NCBI GenBank assembly: GCA_023664385.1
Contig: JAMPFU010000025.1
Span: forward strand, 1-43,855
DNA length: 43,855 nt
Reading direction: 5' to 3'
Source: Clostridium sp.
Lineage (GTDB): Bacteria > Bacillota > Clostridia > Lachnospirales > Lachnospiraceae
The notes below the pieces were generated by a model. It did no database searches and was not told the origin of the DNA. It worked only from the letters and a program-made list of their open reading frames with translations. Position 1 is the first letter of the stretch; every line of letters starts with the position of its first letter. Below, in pieces: positions 21,295-43,675 of this stretch. A program made the position numbers and the translations under genes.

Positions 21295-22083
21295 TTATGC
21301 GTGCATTTTATATTCAATTCTAAGCTTATCTGCAATCAGGGCAATAAATTCAGAATTTGTCGGCTTCCCCTTTCCGGCACTTACCGTATATCCAAACATT
21401 TCCTCAATCACTTCTATTTTTCCCCTGCTCCATGCCACCTCAATTGCATGTCGTATCGCCCGCTCAACACTGCTTGATGTTGTCTTATATTTTTTCGCTA
21501 TGCTAGGATATAAAAGCTTTGTAATAAAATTCAGCATATTCATATCATTGATTGCCATAATAATTCCTTCACGAATATACTGATAGCCCTTTATATGCGC
21601 AGGTATTCCAATCTCACGTATAATCTCCGTAACATCATTTTCAATGGAGGATGCCTGCCTCACATTTGCCTTTGCATCAAGCTCCACAAGCTCATCCTCC
21701 TTTGATAAGCCTGCAATCTGTATAATTCTCTTTGCCAATATTTCAGGGTTGCACGGCTTCATAATATAATAATCCGCCCCAAGATTAAATGCCATGCTTA
21801 TGATACGTGGTGAACCCACATTTGTAATAAAAATAATGCTTGTCCCTGAAAATTCTTCATTTGCACGTAACTGCTCAACAACCTCCAGTCCGTCAACATT
21901 TGCAATAAATACATCAATCAGAAGAACATCCGGTCTGTATTCCAAAACAATGTCATACACAGCCGCTCCATCATCTGTTGTACTTACAATATCAATAGTA
22001 TCTCCACTTTGAACCTGTAATTGCTTTGATAGGATTTCATAGCCTGCATCTGCAATTACAACCCGAACTTTTTGTTCAGTCAT
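21295..22083 (-). CDS. spo0A: Spo0A-family response regulator (receiver mostly intact)
   Basis: 262 aa. The receiver keeps the phospho-acceptor D57 (VLLIDVFI), T87 (FITNVG) and K109 (YIMKPCN). The first acidic pair is IADAG, so one of the two usual Asp is Ala13. The C-terminal Spo0A DNA-binding domain is complete: [37 protein letters not shown] and [12 protein letters not shown], then [13 protein letters not shown]. Start ATG 22083 has GGGGAG upstream. It is preceded by a sigma-A promoter (TTGACA-17-TATTAT) with two 0A-box-like sites. It is not next to spoIVB/recN as is common. A closely similar paralogue lies directly upstream. Which of the two is the orthologue of spo0A is judged from receiver integrity only. 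Confidence 0.85.
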
Positions 22084-22105
22084 AACAATCTCCCCTTTAG
22101 CTATT

Positions 22106-22134
22106 CTCCATATCAATCATATAACCATATGGAG
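22106..22134. promoter_or_regulatory. inverted repeat over the -10/start region of the spo0A promoter
   Basis: Arms CTCCATAT (22106-22113) and ATATGGAG (22127-22134) are perfect complements with a 13-base spacer. They cover the predicted transcription start, next to the -10. This could be an operator or a leader hairpin. Confidence 0.4.
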
Positions 22135-22209: not shown

Positions 22210-22998
22210 CTATGCGCTTTTCATTTTACTATCAAGTCTTATCTTATCAGCAATCAGCGCTATAAACTCTGAATTTGTAGGCTTTAATTTGCCCTGATTC
22301 ATTGTATAACCAAACAATTCATAAATCGTATCTGTTTTTCCTCTCCCCCATGCAACCTCAATTGCATGCCTGATTGCACGCTCAACTCTTGATGAGGTTG
22401 TCCCGTACTCTTTCGCAATTGAGGGATATAGCTGCTTTGTTATAGAATTTAAAACATCCATGTCACGTACCGCCATGATAATTGAGCTTCTCAAATACTG
22501 ATAGCCCTTTATATGTGCCGGAACACCTATCTCATGTATTATCTCGGTAACCTTCCGTTCCAGATTACTCTCATAAATTTCATCTGAGCTCTCACATATA
22601 TGAATGCCTTTTTGTTTTGATTTGGACGTATTGATTATTTCCTGAAATAAATCAATCCCATCTGCCGCTTCGTCAATTATGTTTATGTATATATGATTTA
22701 ATTTTCCCTTGTATATTTTTTCCAAAAATTTTATTTGGCTCATATTTGCCTTTACAAGAAACTTAAACGGAAGGTCCTCCTTTTTATCTATCTCATCCAT
22801 TATGGCAATCCCATCTAAATTAGGCAGCAATAAATCGATAATTACAATATCAGGATTATATTTTAAAATTCCGTCCATTCCTTCCTGTCCATCCGTAAAA
22901 CACCCGCAAACATAAAAGTCTTTCTTTGTCTCAAGCATGACCCTTAATTCGTTAGCACTTCTTAAATCATGCTTGATAACAAGTACCTTTATTCTCAT
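22210..22998 (-). CDS. Spo0A paralogue with degenerate receiver
   Basis: 262 aa, with the same Spo0A effector domain as its neighbour: [63 protein letters not shown]. The receiver keeps D55 ([13 protein letters not shown]), but the acidic pair is replaced by K9-H10 (VIKHDL), the switch Thr region reads FLVKANMS, and the conserved Lys is gone (IYINIIDE). It may therefore respond to something other than phosphorylation, or be constitutively on or off. Promoter TTGTTA-17-TATAAT (23062-23034). A perfect 15-bp palindrome lies ten bases upstream of the -35. It ends 126 bp before the start of the intact-receiver paralogue, which has its own promoter. Confidence 0.85.
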
Positions 22999-39937: not shown

Positions 39938-40429
39938 ATGAACATTTTAATAAGAGAATTTACTGCTTCTGATATAGAGGAAGCTGCGTCCATATGGAAT
40001 AATGTTGTTGCTGACGGCGTTGCATTCCCACAGCTTGATTTGTTAGATGAGGAAACGGGACTTGATTTTTTCATGCAGCAGTCCTTTACCGGTATTGCTT
40101 ATAACGAAGAAAATAATCAAATTATGGGGCTTTATATTTTACATCCAAATAATGTAGGAAGATGCGGACACATATGCAATGCAAGCTATGCTGTAGCAAA
40201 AAATATGCGTGGACATCACATTGGGGAAGCGCTTGTCAGACATTGCATGGCAAAAGCCCTTACGCTTGGATTTAAAATACTACAGTTTAACGCTGTCGTA
40301 AGTACAAATTCTGCAGCACTGTCCCTCTATGAAAAGCTTGGGTTTACTAAACTTGGCGTTATCCCCGGCGGTTTTCTTATGAAGGACGGGCACTATGAGG
40401 ACATTATTCCCCACTACATTGTTCTGTAA
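39938..40429 (+). CDS. GNAT family N-acetyltransferase
   Basis: 163-aa GNAT protein. It begins NILIREFTASDIEEAASIWN. The acetyl-CoA site shows in ASYAVAKNMRGHHIGEALV, and NSAALSLYEKLGFTKLG is the usual C-terminal helix-strand. The closing KDGHYEDIIPHYIVL recalls RimI/phosphinothricin-type members that act on small molecules. The substrate is unknown. AGAGGAG lies before ATG 39938; an earlier ATG at 39863 falls inside the rpmB terminator and is rejected. It precedes a riboswitch-controlled operon but has no part in it that I can see. Confidence 0.85.
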   Translation: MNILIREFTASDIEEAASIWNNVVADGVAFPQLDLLDEETGLDFFMQQSFTGIAYNEENNQIMGLYILHPNNVGRCGHICNASYAVAKNMRGHHIGEALVRHCMAKALTLGFKILQFNAVVSTNSAALSLYEKLGFTKLGVIPGGFLMKDGHYEDIIPHYIVL

Positions 40430-40480
40430 GATCGCTTATTGAGATATTTTATCATTAGGGGATAAATTGTAAATTTTTTC

Positions 40481-40510
40481 TTGACAATCCCCAAAAAGTC
40501 ATGTTAGTTT
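40481..40510 (+). promoter_or_regulatory. promoter of the riboswitch-ABC operon
   Basis: Consensus -35 TTGACA (40481-40486) and an extended -10, TG-T-TAGTTT (-10 at 40505-40510), 18-bp spacer. The -10 is weak. Transcription would start just before the aptamer. Confidence 0.5.
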
Positions 40511-40527
40511 AAGGGCACAACATAAAG

Positions 40528-40618
40528 TACCCGTGGGGGAGTAGTGGCGCAAATGTGCGTGGCAAATCAACATACCGACTTAAACGTCTGGTTTGCCTTA
40601 AACAACGAGACTCATGTA
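40528..40618 (+). ncRNA. yybP-ykoY (manganese) riboswitch aptamer
   Basis: The conserved elements occur in order. GGGGAGTAG (40536-40544) is the L1 core, CAACATAC (40568-40575) is the internal signature, and ACGAGAC (40605-40611) is the L3 core. P1 is formed by TAC-GTGGG (40528-40537) with CTCATGTA (40611-40618). GGCAAA/TTTGCC closes an inner helix with CCGAC/GTCTGG inside it. This class binds Mn2+ and turns on manganese-homeostasis genes. The consensus elements and spacing make the call strong even without a covariance search. Confidence 0.88.
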
Positions 40619-40689
40619 TTGCTTATTTGCCATACATGTAGTTTCTTTATTTTTTTCCGAGTATGGCATAGGCTGTATTCGGTTTTTTT
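40613..40689 (+). promoter_or_regulatory. riboswitch expression platform (terminator/antiterminator)
   Basis: Terminator arms CCGAGTA (40657-40663) and TATTCGG (40676-40682) are followed by TTTTTTT. GCCATAC (40629-40635) is a perfect complement of GTATGGC (40661-40667), forming an antiterminator. CATGTA (40613-40618), the 3' side of P1, can instead pair with TACATG (40633-40638) and hide GCCATAC. Ligand-stabilised P1 would free GCCATAC and prevent termination, which is an ON switch. Confidence 0.75.
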
Positions 40690-40715
40690 GTTGAAAAAGG
40701 AAAGGACGGATATTA

Positions 40716-41414
40716 ATGTTTATTGAAATCAAAGGAATTAAAAAAGGCTTTGGCGAGGGAGAAAGCCGTGTAGAGGTACTAAAAGGCATCGATGTGGAAA
40801 TTAAAAAGGGAGAATTTACCGTACTGCTTGGTCCCTCAGGCTCAGGTAAGTCAACCTTGCTTAACATTATCGGCGGCATTGACAATGCCGACAGCGGCTA
40901 CATATCAATTGATGGCGAAAAAACCGACAACATGAACGAAAAGGCGCTTTCCCTGTACCGCAGAAAGCATCTCGGCTATATTTTTCAAATGTACAACCTA
41001 ATCCCAAACCTTAACATAAAGGAAAATGTTGAGGTTGGCGCTTACCTTAGCGACAATCCCCTCGATGTTGACGAGCTTCTAAATACACTTGGACTTTACG
41101 AGCACCGTCACAAGCTTCCAAACCAGCTTTCGGGCGGGCAACAGCAAAGGACGGCAATCGGACGGGCAATCGTAAAGAATCCTGACATCCTTCTCTGCGA
41201 CGAGCCTACAGGTGCGCTTGACTTTAATACCTCCAAAGAAATACTCAGGCTGATTGAGGAGGTAAACCAAAAATACGGCAACACGGTTATCATGGTTACA
41301 CATAATGACGCAATAAAAAATATGGCTGACAGGGTCATCAAGCTTCGTGACGGCATTATAAAGAAAAACTACATGAATGATGTTAAGCTTACTGCCGACG
41401 AGCTTGACTGGTAG
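40716..41414 (+). CDS. ABC transporter ATP-binding protein (MacB/LolD type)
   Basis: 232-aa ATPase. Walker A GPSGSGKST is at 39-47, the Q-loop is in YIFQMYNLIPNLN, the signature LSGGQQQR is at 138-145, Walker B is DILLCDEPTGALD with E163, and the H-switch is VTHN. The LNIIGGID and PTGALD motifs place it in the MacB/LolD/YknY group that pairs with FtsX-type permeases. AAGGA lies nine bases before the ATG. It stands directly behind the yybP-ykoY riboswitch and 11 bp before its permease gene. Confidence 0.95.
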   Translation: MFIEIKGIKKGFGEGESRVEVLKGIDVEIKKGEFTVLLGPSGSGKSTLLNIIGGIDNADSGYISIDGEKTDNMNEKALSLYRRKHLGYIFQMYNLIPNLNIKENVEVGAYLSDNPLDVDELLNTLGLYEHRHKLPNQLSGGQQQRTAIGRAIVKNPDILLCDEPTGALDFNTSKEILRLIEEVNQKYGNTVIMVTHNDAIKNMADRVIKLRDGIIKKNYMNDVKLTADELDW

Positions 41415-41425
41415 GAGGTGTCACT

Positions 41426-43675
41426 ATGAAAAATCCTCTTAACAAAAGGTTCCCACGGGAGTTAAAATCCGACTTTGGAAAATACGTTGCCATATTTATA
41501 TTTGTAACCTTAATGACCGGCTTTGTCTCAGGCTTTCTCATTGCGGGGGACAGCATGAAAAAAAGCTACAACGAAAGCTATGAAAAATACAATATTGAAG
41601 ACGGAAATTTTGAGCTTACGGACAAAGCTGAAGGCGCTTTATTTGACGCAATGGCTGACGAAGACATAACGCTTTATGAAAACTTTTACATTGAGGAAAA
41701 AACTACTGAGCTTGACAGCACGCTCCGTATTTTTGCAAACCGTGACGAGGTAAATCTCATATGCCTCATGTCGGGTGAGCTTCCAAAAGCCACAGATGAA
41801 ATCGCCATTGACAGGGTTTATGCCAAAAACAACAATTTATCCATCGGCGACACAATAACGACAGGTAATCATGCACTTAAAATTACAGGCTTTGTTGCAC
41901 TCTCCGACTATTCCACGCTATTTCAAAGTCCATCAGACATGATGTTTGATACCGTAAAATTTGGTGTAGGAATTATGACGGCTGACGGCTTTAATAATAT
42001 GCCGCAAGCCCATATACATTATTCTTATTCATGGAAATATGACCATAAACCAGAGGATGACGCCGAGGCAAAGACTATGTCAGAGGACATGCTTCCAGTT
42101 CTCGCAGCCAATGCCTCCATAAAGGAATTTATACCTGCCTACATAAACCAGGCAATTATTTTTGCAATTGATGATATTGTCAGTGACGGTTCCATGATGC
42201 CTATTCTCTTATATATTATTCTTGTAATTATAGCCTTTATATTTGCAATTCTTACAAACAATACAATTTCAAGGGAGGCAAATGTAATCGGGACCTTACG
42301 GGCATCAGGCTACACCAGAGGCGAGCTGATACGGCATTATATCACAATGCCAATGCTTATCACATTGATTGCCGCCATTACAGGAAATATTTTAGGCTAC
42401 ACTGTATTTAAGAATATGTGTGCAGATATGTACTATGGCTCATACAGCCTGACAACATATGAAACAGTGTGGAATGCAGACGCATTTGTAAAAACCACCG
42501 TTATTCCGCTTATTATTATTTGCGTAATAAATTTGTGTATTCTCTGGGCAAAATTAAAGCTTTCACCGCTTAAATTTATAAGGCGTGATTTAAGCCGCAA
42601 GAAAAAGAAAAAGGCATTCCGTCTTAATACAAAAATTGGTATTATGACAAGATTCAGAATCCGTATTATTTTTCAGAATTTACCGAATTATGTCACAATA
42701 ATCATAGGCATGTTCCTTGCAAATGCAATTCTTTTATTCGGCATGGGACTTACGCCGATGATGGACCACTACCAACAGGAAATTATCGACAACATGATTG
42801 CCAGGCATCAGTACATACTTAAAATGCCTGTTGAAACGACAAGCACAGAAGCGGAAAAATATTGCTCAACCACACTGAAAACGGTTGACGACAATTTAAA
42901 GGCTGAGGATGCAACTATTTTCGGAATATCCACAGACAGCAGCCATGTTGATATCAGCTTTAAGAATGGCGTGTACATTTCCAACGCTTACGCTGAAAAA
43001 TATAAGCTTAAAGCAGGGGACACGGTTTCACTTTTTAACAGCTATGAAAACAAAACATACAGCTTTGCCATAGACGGAATATACGATTATCCCGCAGGCA
43101 TTACGGTTTTTATGGACATGGAGCAGTTCAATGACGCCTTTGATATGCAGGAGGGTTATTTCACCGGATATTTTTCAGATGAGGAAATAACGGATATTGA
43201 CGATACACTGATTGCCGCTGAAATTACTGAGGATGAGCTGACAAAGACCAGCAGGCAGCTTACGACAACCTTCAGAGAAATGGCAGGAATGGTTCAGGCT
43301 TTTGGAATTGTCTTTTTCATGCTTGTGATATATCTTCTCTCAAGGATTATCATTGAGAAAAATGCACAGTCCATCTCCATGACAAAAATACTCGGCTATT
43401 CCAATGCTGAAATAAACGGACTTTATATCGCCTCAACAGCAATAGTGGTCGTGCTTTCAATCATCGTTACGATACCTGTTGTAAACATAGCGATAGCAAA
43501 ACTAATTCCAATTGCAATGAAAGACTTTTCAGGATATTTCTTCTATTACGTTCCATTTGACATTTTTGTTAAAATGGCGTTGCTTGGATTTTTGTGCTAT
43601 GGCATTATTGCATGGTTTCAAACAAGGAAGGTTAAGAAAATTCCGCTTGACATTGCACTGAAAAATGTAGAGTAG
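41426..43675 (+). CDS. FtsX-family ABC permease (749 aa, 8 TM)
   Basis: Full-length two-repeat permease. It has one helix at 20-41, then a large extracytoplasmic domain (about 45-250), and three helices at about 257-277, 305-326 and 358-377. A loop with RKKKKKAF follows, then a helix at 420-442, a second extracytoplasmic domain (about 445-615) and three C-terminal helices (about 621-641, 665-693, 712-732). The motif REANVIGTLRASGYTRGELI and its repeat AQSISMTKILGYSNAEI are the coupling regions of FtsX-type MacB-like permeases. It partners the preceding ATPase. Such systems export peptides or lipids, or transmit force. Substrate unknown, and its control by a manganese riboswitch is unusual. 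Confidence 0.92.
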   Translation: MKNPLNKRFPRELKSDFGKYVAIFIFVTLMTGFVSGFLIAGDSMKKSYNESYEKYNIEDGNFELTDKAEGALFDAMADEDITLYENFYIEEKTTELDSTLRIFANRDEVNLICLMSGELPKATDEIAIDRVYAKNNNLSIGDTITTGNHALKITGFVALSDYSTLFQSPSDMMFDTVKFGVGIMTADGFNNMPQAHIHYSYSWKYDHKPEDDAEAKTMSEDMLPVLAANASIKEFIPAYINQAIIFAIDDIVSDGSMMPILLYIILVIIAFIFAILTNNTISREANVIGTLRASGYTRGELIRHYITMPMLITLIAAITGNILGYTVFKNMCADMYYGSYSLTTYETVWNADAFVKTTVIPLIIICVINLCILWAKLKLSPLKFIRRDLSRKKKKKAFRLNTKIGIMTRFRIRIIFQNLPNYVTIIIGMFLANAILLFGMGLTPMMDHYQQEIIDNMIARHQYILKMPVETTSTEAEKYCSTTLKTVDDNLKAEDATIFGISTDSSHVDISFKNGVYISNAYAEKYKLKAGDTVSLFNSYENKTYSFAIDGIYDYPAGITVFMDMEQFNDAFDMQEGYFTGYFSDEEITDIDDTLIAAEITEDELTKTSRQLTTTFREMAGMVQAFGIVFFMLVIYLLSRIIIEKNAQSISMTKILGYSNAEINGLYIASTAIVVVLSIIVTIPVVNIAIAKLIPIAMKDFSGYFFYYVPFDIFVKMALLGFLCYGIIAWFQTRKVKKIPLDIALKNVE

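Follow-up and report, generated by a model that had tools for sequence, protein, structure and literature searches.

Architecture of the locus

The window, i.e. the whole 43,855-nt stretch of Clostridium sp. DNA that was analyzed, carries close to its end a structured leader followed by genes for an ABC ATPase and an FtsX-type permease (Table 1). PF02687 matches the permease in two stretches, and the structural model of the permease predicts eight long transmembrane (TM) helices and two outer domains (pLDDT 86.5). Having an FtsX permease with an outer domain between TM1 and TM2, as well as an ABC_tran ATPase, the operon displays the features of a type VII ABC transporter, the fold of the permease being a prediction. 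An earlier sequence-only reading had spoken of a MacB/FtsX type; the predicted fold is, however, closer to YbbP, its nearest match, and to BceB than to MacB.

Like the operon described here, the E. coli type VII system YbbAP combines a single-chain permease with internal duplication, two large outer domains and a separate ATPase, according to PMC12646458, from which the YbbP and BceB topologies are also taken. However, YbbP has 10 TM helices with a TM5-6 linker, while eight helices and no linker are predicted for the window permease; the two share only ~12% identity, and the window operon sits behind a manganese-type switch. BceAB also has a single-chain FtsX-type permease, and BceA is the solved sequence nearest to the window ATPase, yet BceB possesses one large outer domain and 10 TM helices, and no BceS/BceR-like genes were seen beside the operon in the window. 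MacB shares the FtsX domain and the outer domain between TM1 and TM2, but its ATPase is fused to the permease, whereas here the ATPase is a separate ORF and both permease halves form one chain. No MacA-like gene was seen beside the operon in the window, where the contig ends 180 bases past the operon. PF01794 had no match in the window's own genome, and a near-plasmid search likewise gave no match.

Table 1. Features of the leader and the ABC operon, in positions of the window.
Feature	Position	Strand	Basis or details
yybP-ykoY-like (Mn2+) riboswitch aptamer, three-helix form without P4	40530..40618	+	R1, R2 and RF00080 scores
P1 switch helix, 5' strand	40532..40537	+	partner 40611-40616; fold and covariation
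L1 core GGGGAGTAG	40536..40544	+	sequence match
P2 hairpin (40547-40551 with 40556-40560)	40547..40560	+	fold only; absent from models R1 and R2
P3 (40561-40568 with 40590-40597) and P3b (40577-40579 with 40586-40588)	40561..40597	+	fold; covariation
L3 core CAACATAC	40568..40575	+	sequence match
13-nt linker TTAAACAACGAGA at the place of P4	40598..40610	+	fold and leader alignments
Anti-P1 helix CATGTA/TACATG (40613-40618 with 40633-40638)	40613..40638	+	fold; excludes P1
Antiterminator GCCATAC/GTATGGC (40629-40635 with 40661-40667)	40629..40667	+	fold
Intrinsic terminator, 11-pair stem (40657-40682) and T-run	40657..40690	+	terminator search, fold
ABC ATPase, 232 aa	40716..41414	+	ABC_tran (PF00005); nearest solved sequences BceA, then MacB
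FtsX-type (type VII) permease, 749 aa, two fused halves	41426..43675	+	PF02687, predicted model

The anti-P1 and antiterminator pairings had both been put forward from the sequence alone, and the fold bears them out; antiterminator and terminator are mutually exclusive. A terminator search of 40400-40760 returned one terminator with 0.2 expected. Among 36 ABC leaders, 31 end in a terminator (2.0 expected), while none was found in L215, L270, L211, L184 and L188; not counted here are L209 and L192 (near copies), L021 and L023 (cut-off matches) and the leaders from the class and the same genus, which were obtained later.

A leader of the yybP-ykoY type without P4

The three conserved cores claimed previously are all present, the third one, ACGAGAC, at 40605-40611. 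The L1 (GGGGAGUAG) and L3 (CAACAUAC) loops were both found in the window together with the invariant Mn-contacting adenosine; by our own alignment, A40572 in L3 would be the counterpart of the Mn-contacting A48 of the X. oryzae aptamer (numbering as in PMC6754395), around which the window's L3, AACAUAC, is identical. Eleven of 11 ABC leaders contain CAACA and 10 of the 11 GGGAGTAG, and the cores L1, L3 and GAGACT are common to ABC leaders and the commonest mntP leaders. Since the first two cores occur in order in 2 of 150 same-family genomes, against none of these 150 for the reversed pattern, the match goes beyond chance. Covariation supports the pairing of P1 and P3, with far lower values for slid controls, in alignments that had been fitted to the structure and of which one of two counts included a spurious row (L277, 13.3 bits, alignment A6).

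With the yybP-ykoY family (RF00080) the leader has in common the L1 sequence GGGGAGUAG, the 3' GAGAC strand, the P1 switch helix and, as described in PMC6754395 and PMC11087558, the logic of transcription antitermination. It differs in P4, whose place between P3 and P1 is taken by a 13-nt linker (99 of 100 and 49 of 50 aligned leaders). The four-way junction with P4 seen in solved aptamers is therefore replaced by a three-way junction in the aligned leaders, and we call the element a variant of the yybP-ykoY class rather than a strict member.

RF00080 scores the window aptamer at 14.3 bits (E 0.045), below the gathering score of 45 bits. Taken literally, the threshold check that the sequence-only reading had set itself, a miss being declared a refutation, is not passed. 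We do not accept the miss as a refutation, because this test also misses mntP controls: the gathering score is reached by none of 20 mntP-linked same-family loci (20 of 100 found), nor by the E. coli mntP leader (41.6 bits). It is passed in none of 150 same-family genomes and exceeded in 2 of 14 named control genomes. The test is consequently weak, and we rejected the gathering score as sole judge.

Two covariance models were built from the leaders themselves, R1 from three clostridial leaders including the window's and R2 from 100 of the R1 matches; the window aptamer scores 110.7 and 89.6 bits, respectively, being a training sequence of both. R1 has matches in 193 of 397 same-family genomes at E<=1, nine of them weaker than E 0.001. 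The 150 same-family leaders are the best-scoring among the matches listed, the three training sequences being part of them; the many-genome searches used stricter filters, and the G004 leader, missed by the R1 scan, was later found in L026. R2 also finds the E. coli mntP leader (30.9 bits, identical cores), reported in PMC11647493 to be a translational switch, which differs in a P4-like hairpin of its own between P3 and GAGAC (single-sequence fold). The alx leader of E. coli, a second Mn-sensing switch according to PMC9603457, was not recovered by R2 at E<=10, so that at least one of the reported Mn switches is not covered by this model. RF00080 likewise gave no match for alx at E<=1.

Genes associated with the leader

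The element lies upstream of the ABC operon in 24 of the 80 named relatives of the permease, 0.8-1.1 kb before the permease start, immediately 5' of the ATPase gene and in its orientation. This identical placement confirms the proposed pairing of switch and ABC operon as opposed to a neighbor's motif. Where at least 1 kb of upstream sequence was available (73 named loci), 49 loci have no switch, and the tree requires at least seven gains or losses; manganese control is therefore not inherent to the ABC family.

Behind 149 such leaders we found 100 MntP-like, 17 CaCA-type, 15 P-type ATPase and two GDT1-like genes, and in 11 cases an ABC ATPase of the window's kind (the tallies exclude L124, L322 and L328, for which no downstream gene was obtained). 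Mn/cation exporter genes stand behind most of the leaders across genomes, and with a partial survey of the class included, most of the non-ABC genes resemble cation transporters. At some ABC loci metal genes are neighbors: mntP lies directly upstream of the operon in L215 and L216, feoB-like genes flank it in L187 and adjoin it in L218, L278 and L281, and mgtC is near it in L183. Titles and the beginnings of abstracts revealed no published link between a yybP-type switch and an FtsX-type ABC transporter; ABC genes or P4-less members may have been mentioned earlier.

A putative envelope arm of the manganese response

The occurrence of a riboswitch before the ABC operon is confirmed, and the interpretation previously given to it is supported overall. 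Comparison shows the aptamer with its covariation, the anatomy of the switch and its repeated association with the operon; homology and gene company suggest Mn2+ as the ligand, and we infer a switch of the ON type and a role of the transporter in the envelope. We consider it probable that a Mn2+-sensing yybP-ykoY variant switches on a type VII ABC envelope extruder under manganese excess. At low Mn2+, the 3' strand of P1 would be held in the anti-P1 hairpin, and the terminator would form and stop transcription. At high Mn2+, docking of L1 and L3 would stabilize P1 and free GCCATAC to pair with GTATGGC within the 5' arm of the terminator, so that polymerase reads into the ABC genes. By analogy with YbbAP, the product would be a mechanotransmission-type complex of one duplicated single-chain permease and two ATPase subunits. 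Most likely, it would perform mechanical work on the outer side of the membrane, where it would extract or expel an amphipathic compound or power a process in the envelope, and thereby add a further arm to the response to manganese excess.

Several observations speak against this reading: the patchy distribution of the switch with its repeated gains or losses, the low RF00080 score together with the missing P4, and the failure of R2 on alx. Moreover, the OFF state is the unconstrained fold, the enforced ON state being weaker by 14.5 kcal/mol in a calculation without metal binding, and a shared fold does not show function. The mntP, feoB-like and mgtC genes beside some loci would fit a metal-handling ABC system as well. 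Between the two options of the sequence-only reading, an envelope exporter and such a system, we lean towards the former.

The ABC transporter might itself export Mn2+ or a Mn complex (chelate, metallophore or metal-lipid) and represent a new type of manganese exporter, which we regard as rather unlikely. The cation transporter-like genes behind most other leaders of the same kind and the neighboring metal genes would suit this proposal, as would the heme exporter HrtBA, of type VII fold, among the fold matches. Yet the fold class is known for mechanotransmission, and 49 of 73 orthologs lack the switch. In addition, the permease alignment yielded no metal-site signature that sets switch-bearing permeases apart (sought as a residue in >=80% of switch-bearing rows whose frequency in the remaining rows was 40 points lower; P710 was the single column to pass). 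An mntP gene is also present in 12 of 13 switch-ABC genomes searched, the exception being a 61% complete genome, so the ABC transporter is no replacement for mntP.

Improbable in our view is a yybP-type variant that senses another divalent metal, to which the ABC transporter would answer. Such variants are expected according to PMC7266159, and the unusual aptamer structure without P4 and the FeoB-like neighbors at some loci are compatible with one; on the other hand, 100 of the 149 genes tallied behind the same aptamer form are MntP-like, and the L1, L3 and GAGACT cores of the ABC leaders are those of the commonest mntP leaders. Removal of porphyrins or metalloporphyrins accumulating under Mn excess, as HrtBA does with heme, appears very improbable: although the fold matches include HrtB chains, one solved with Mn-protoporphyrin, the alignment to HrtB is confined to the second half of the permease, and the proposal is weakened because none of 14 switch-ABC genomes, among them that of the window, shows a ferrochelatase, as opposed to eight of 14 control genomes. 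A chance resemblance or a switch of another gene is scarcely credible despite the sub-threshold RF00080 score. Chance was rejected on core frequencies, covariation and the terminator excess in ABC leaders, and the comparative data already refute both options: the pairing covaries, a terminator separates the aptamer from the ATPase gene, and the site is the same in 24 of 80 relatives.

To our knowledge, transporters of the type found in the window are not known to handle metals. In a wider sense, and here we see the chances as evenly balanced, type VII ABC transporters may constitute an unrecognized arm of Mn homeostasis, by Mn-complex export or envelope remodeling, under a three-helix, P4-less subclass of Mn2+ riboswitches overlooked by the family model. 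Given that P4-less leaders occur in 193 of 397 genomes (E<=1) and RF00080 passes its gathering score in none of 150, annotation probably misses part of the Mn regulons in gut Clostridia. Through a sensor whose chemistry is known, an uncharacterized transporter family acquires a physiological condition under which it can be studied, namely manganese excess. In many gut bacteria this switch stands before an ATP-driven envelope machine, suggesting that the envelope, and not ion pumps alone, takes part in clostridial Mn stress.

Conserved core and switching helices of the leader

The leader of the ABC operon had been read from the sequence as a manganese (yybP-ykoY) riboswitch. Its three conserved cores are indeed present at window positions 40536-40544, 40568-40575 and 40605-40611, and the mutually exclusive pairings proposed for it were recovered, by folding with enforced helices, as two exclusive states (see table). 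In a calculation that leaves out ligand energy, folding free of constraints settles in the OFF state at -54.1 kcal/mol, and the enforced ON state lies at -39.6; an OFF minimum is what a ligand-requiring ON switch would show. A simple scan of 40400-40760 found one terminator (0.2 expected), and the sole plus-strand promoter-like site in this interval, at 40439-40468, matches 9 of 12 positions. A possible extra helix, GTTTAAGG/CCTTAAAC (40507-40514 with 40596-40603), would compete with the base of P3; it was not found in relative L002 and is possibly due to chance.

Coordinates of switch elements and of switch-bearing loci
Feature	Position	Strand	Basis or content
P1 (ON state)	window 40532-40537 with 40611-40616	+	folding with enforced helices
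Antiterminator (ON state)	window 40629-40635 with 40661-40667	+	folding with enforced helices
Anti-P1 (OFF state)	window 40613-40618 with 40633-40638	+	folding with enforced helices
Terminator with T-run (OFF state)	window 40657-40682	+	folding with enforced helices
Second switch-like element	G000:C51:13265-13363 = L318:2266-2364	-	R2, 36.5 bits
L193	2999-7661		switch, then HlyD-type adaptor, then ABC genes
L194	2239-7587		switch, then 665-aa coiled protein, then ABC genes

The RF00080 threshold and a three-helix form

Run on the window leader, the Rfam model RF00080 gave 14.3 bits (E 0.045, 291-base search), below its gathering score of 45, so that the sequence-only reading would be refuted going by its own wording. 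The gathering score was exceeded in 2 of 14 control genomes, and was reached by none of 20 loci whose downstream gene is MntP-like (a subset of the 100 such loci found), none of 13 ABC loci and none of 150 genomes of the family Lachnospiraceae, four of which have a weak match; the E. coli mntP leader itself scores 41.6 bits (release 15), also under 45. Altogether, the mntP, ABC-locus, family-genome and E. coli controls show that the threshold itself is the problem.

We built two covariance models of our own, R1 from three clostridial leaders and R2 from 100 of the leaders that R1 matched, both trained with the window leader. R1 matches 193 of 397 family genomes at E<=1 (nine of the 193 more weakly than 0.001), and R2 matches 73 of 291 genomes drawn from the class at E<=1e-5. 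R2 does not find the E. coli alx leader; it does find that of E. coli mntP, and this connects the clostridial leaders with the riboswitch class already studied. In alignments made to fit the structure, with a bias in its favour, 98.2% of pair cells in 99 distinct leaders hold standard pairs, with a covariation score of 0.474 vs 0.234 for shuffled alignments (none of 500 scored as high) and 0.028 to 0.151 in slid registers, and the ABC-locus alignment (25 rows, one of them spurious) gives 0.314 vs 0.196.

Published work describes a four-way junction for the aptamers of both X. oryzae and L. lactis. On folding, the E. coli mntP leader forms a hairpin between P3 and GAGAC. In clostridial leaders, the stretch from P3 to P1 is generally 13 nt long, mostly of the kind UUAAAnnnYGAGA. 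Among aligned clostridial rows, this length holds in 99 of 100, 49 of 50, 24 of 25 and 64 of 70; in a cruder, alignment-free count, 86 of 100 and 39 of 50 leaders have 9-10 nt ahead of GAGAC, and we read the longer stretches among those listed as a misplaced P3 end. Clostridial leaders so aligned have no room for P4, a form of which we know no earlier description. Because R1 and R2 were trained on P4-less leaders, their matches show this form to be common and do not imply that other forms are absent.

Genes behind the leaders

The best 150 of the 193 R1 matches were fetched and re-scored. Clustered by sequence and named by our own reading (backed for MntP by PF02659 matches at L064, L140 and L162, and for ABC by the ABC_tran match of the window ATPase), their first downstream genes comprise 100 MntP-like proteins, 17 CaCA-type exchangers, 15 P-type ATPases, 11 ABC ATPases and two GDT1-like proteins, with single cases of an MgtE-like protein, a large coiled protein, an HlyD adaptor and PrmA (a doubtful case, as a distant ORF); one contig ends before any gene. 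For the class, 70 R2 matches were fetched, and the 68 with a gene, typed by BLAST against six reference proteins, gave 29 MntP, 24 P-type ATPases, five CaCA, two GDT1-like, three others and five ABC ATPases, the latter typed by the ATPase gene alone and three of them in one genus.

An FtsX-type permease gene, whole or partial, lies 3' of the ATPase in all 11 ABC cases, and the HlyD and coiled-protein loci (L193, L194) have both ABC genes further downstream too. The coiled protein of L194 has no Pfam match over cut-off; others of similar look are encoded 3' of the permease gene in L249, L251 and L270, which suggests a third component in some systems.

That the switch precedes the ABC operon was borne out in some relatives. 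Among the best 80 of 505 loci from a permease-alignment scan of named genomes, which include near copies (L209 shares 99% identity with the window; L232, L236 and L240 are nearly identical), 24 carry an aptamer where the ATPase leader lies, always upstream of the permease and at >=55 bits (R1) or >=68 (R2); the other 56, of which 49 have 1 kb or more upstream (barely so in L263 and L283) and seven less, gave nothing above 13.3 bits with R1 or R2. Within the genus, six of nine kept loci are positive, one of the three negatives having just 175 bases upstream. A quick 96-permease tree requires 11 changes of the switch label vs 27.1 when the label is shuffled, at least seven of the 11 being forced by starred branches. 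The window's permease (row L209) falls in a group of 22 with 20 positives (support 94, not starred), and a separate group of four is wholly positive (support 100). Most members of the group that holds the window's permease thus share the link, which, as the changes indicate, has been gained or lost repeatedly within the family. A hairpin with T-run follows the aptamer in 31 of 36 ABC-linked leaders (2.0 expected). At L183, in genome G064, the switch-linked permease is divided between two ORFs of 429 and 273 aa, and mgtC is found two genes upstream.

ABC leaders keep CAACA (11 of 11), GGGAGTAG (10 of 11) and GAGACT (11 of 11), as do the commonest mntP leaders, and nothing in these cores points to a different ligand; variants are expected within the class, according to section 13 of PMC7266159.

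Role of the ABC operon

The window's genome has an mntP gene, with no detectable switch within 1.5 kb. It also has a second, weaker Mn-switch-like element, which R2 alone detects, in front of a gene for a CaCA-type cation exchanger; the L3 of this element, GUCAGUAC, is in our reading nearer the L. lactis form. Going by R2, the ABC operon and this exchanger would be the switch-controlled genes of the genome. Of 13 switch-ABC genomes searched, 12 have mntP. Elsewhere in the window, two adjacent genes (21295-22116 and 22210-22998) are alike at their C-terminal ends and presumably resemble Spo0A-type response regulators.

At L187 (304-9299), the switch-bearing ABC operon is flanked by feoB, assigned by Pfam, and by a gene judged feoB-like by sight, and an HMA-domain protein lies directly 3' of the permease.

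The main rival reading is that the ABC system exports a metal complex, in line with the exporters that predominate behind leaders of this kind and with the metal genes that neighbour the operon in some loci (Pfam supports mntP in L215, mgtC in L183 and one feoB in L187; the rest are named by sight); against it, the fold class, the permease, in which no metal signature was found, and the orthologues without a switch all count for an envelope role. A link between Mn switch and envelope is, moreover, published: PMC10550928 places MeeY under switch control, with a role in protein secretion, and lists among the MeeF/MeeY partners YknW, which modulates the assembly of ABC transporters. For these reasons, we favour an envelope machine that has been recruited into the Mn-excess response.
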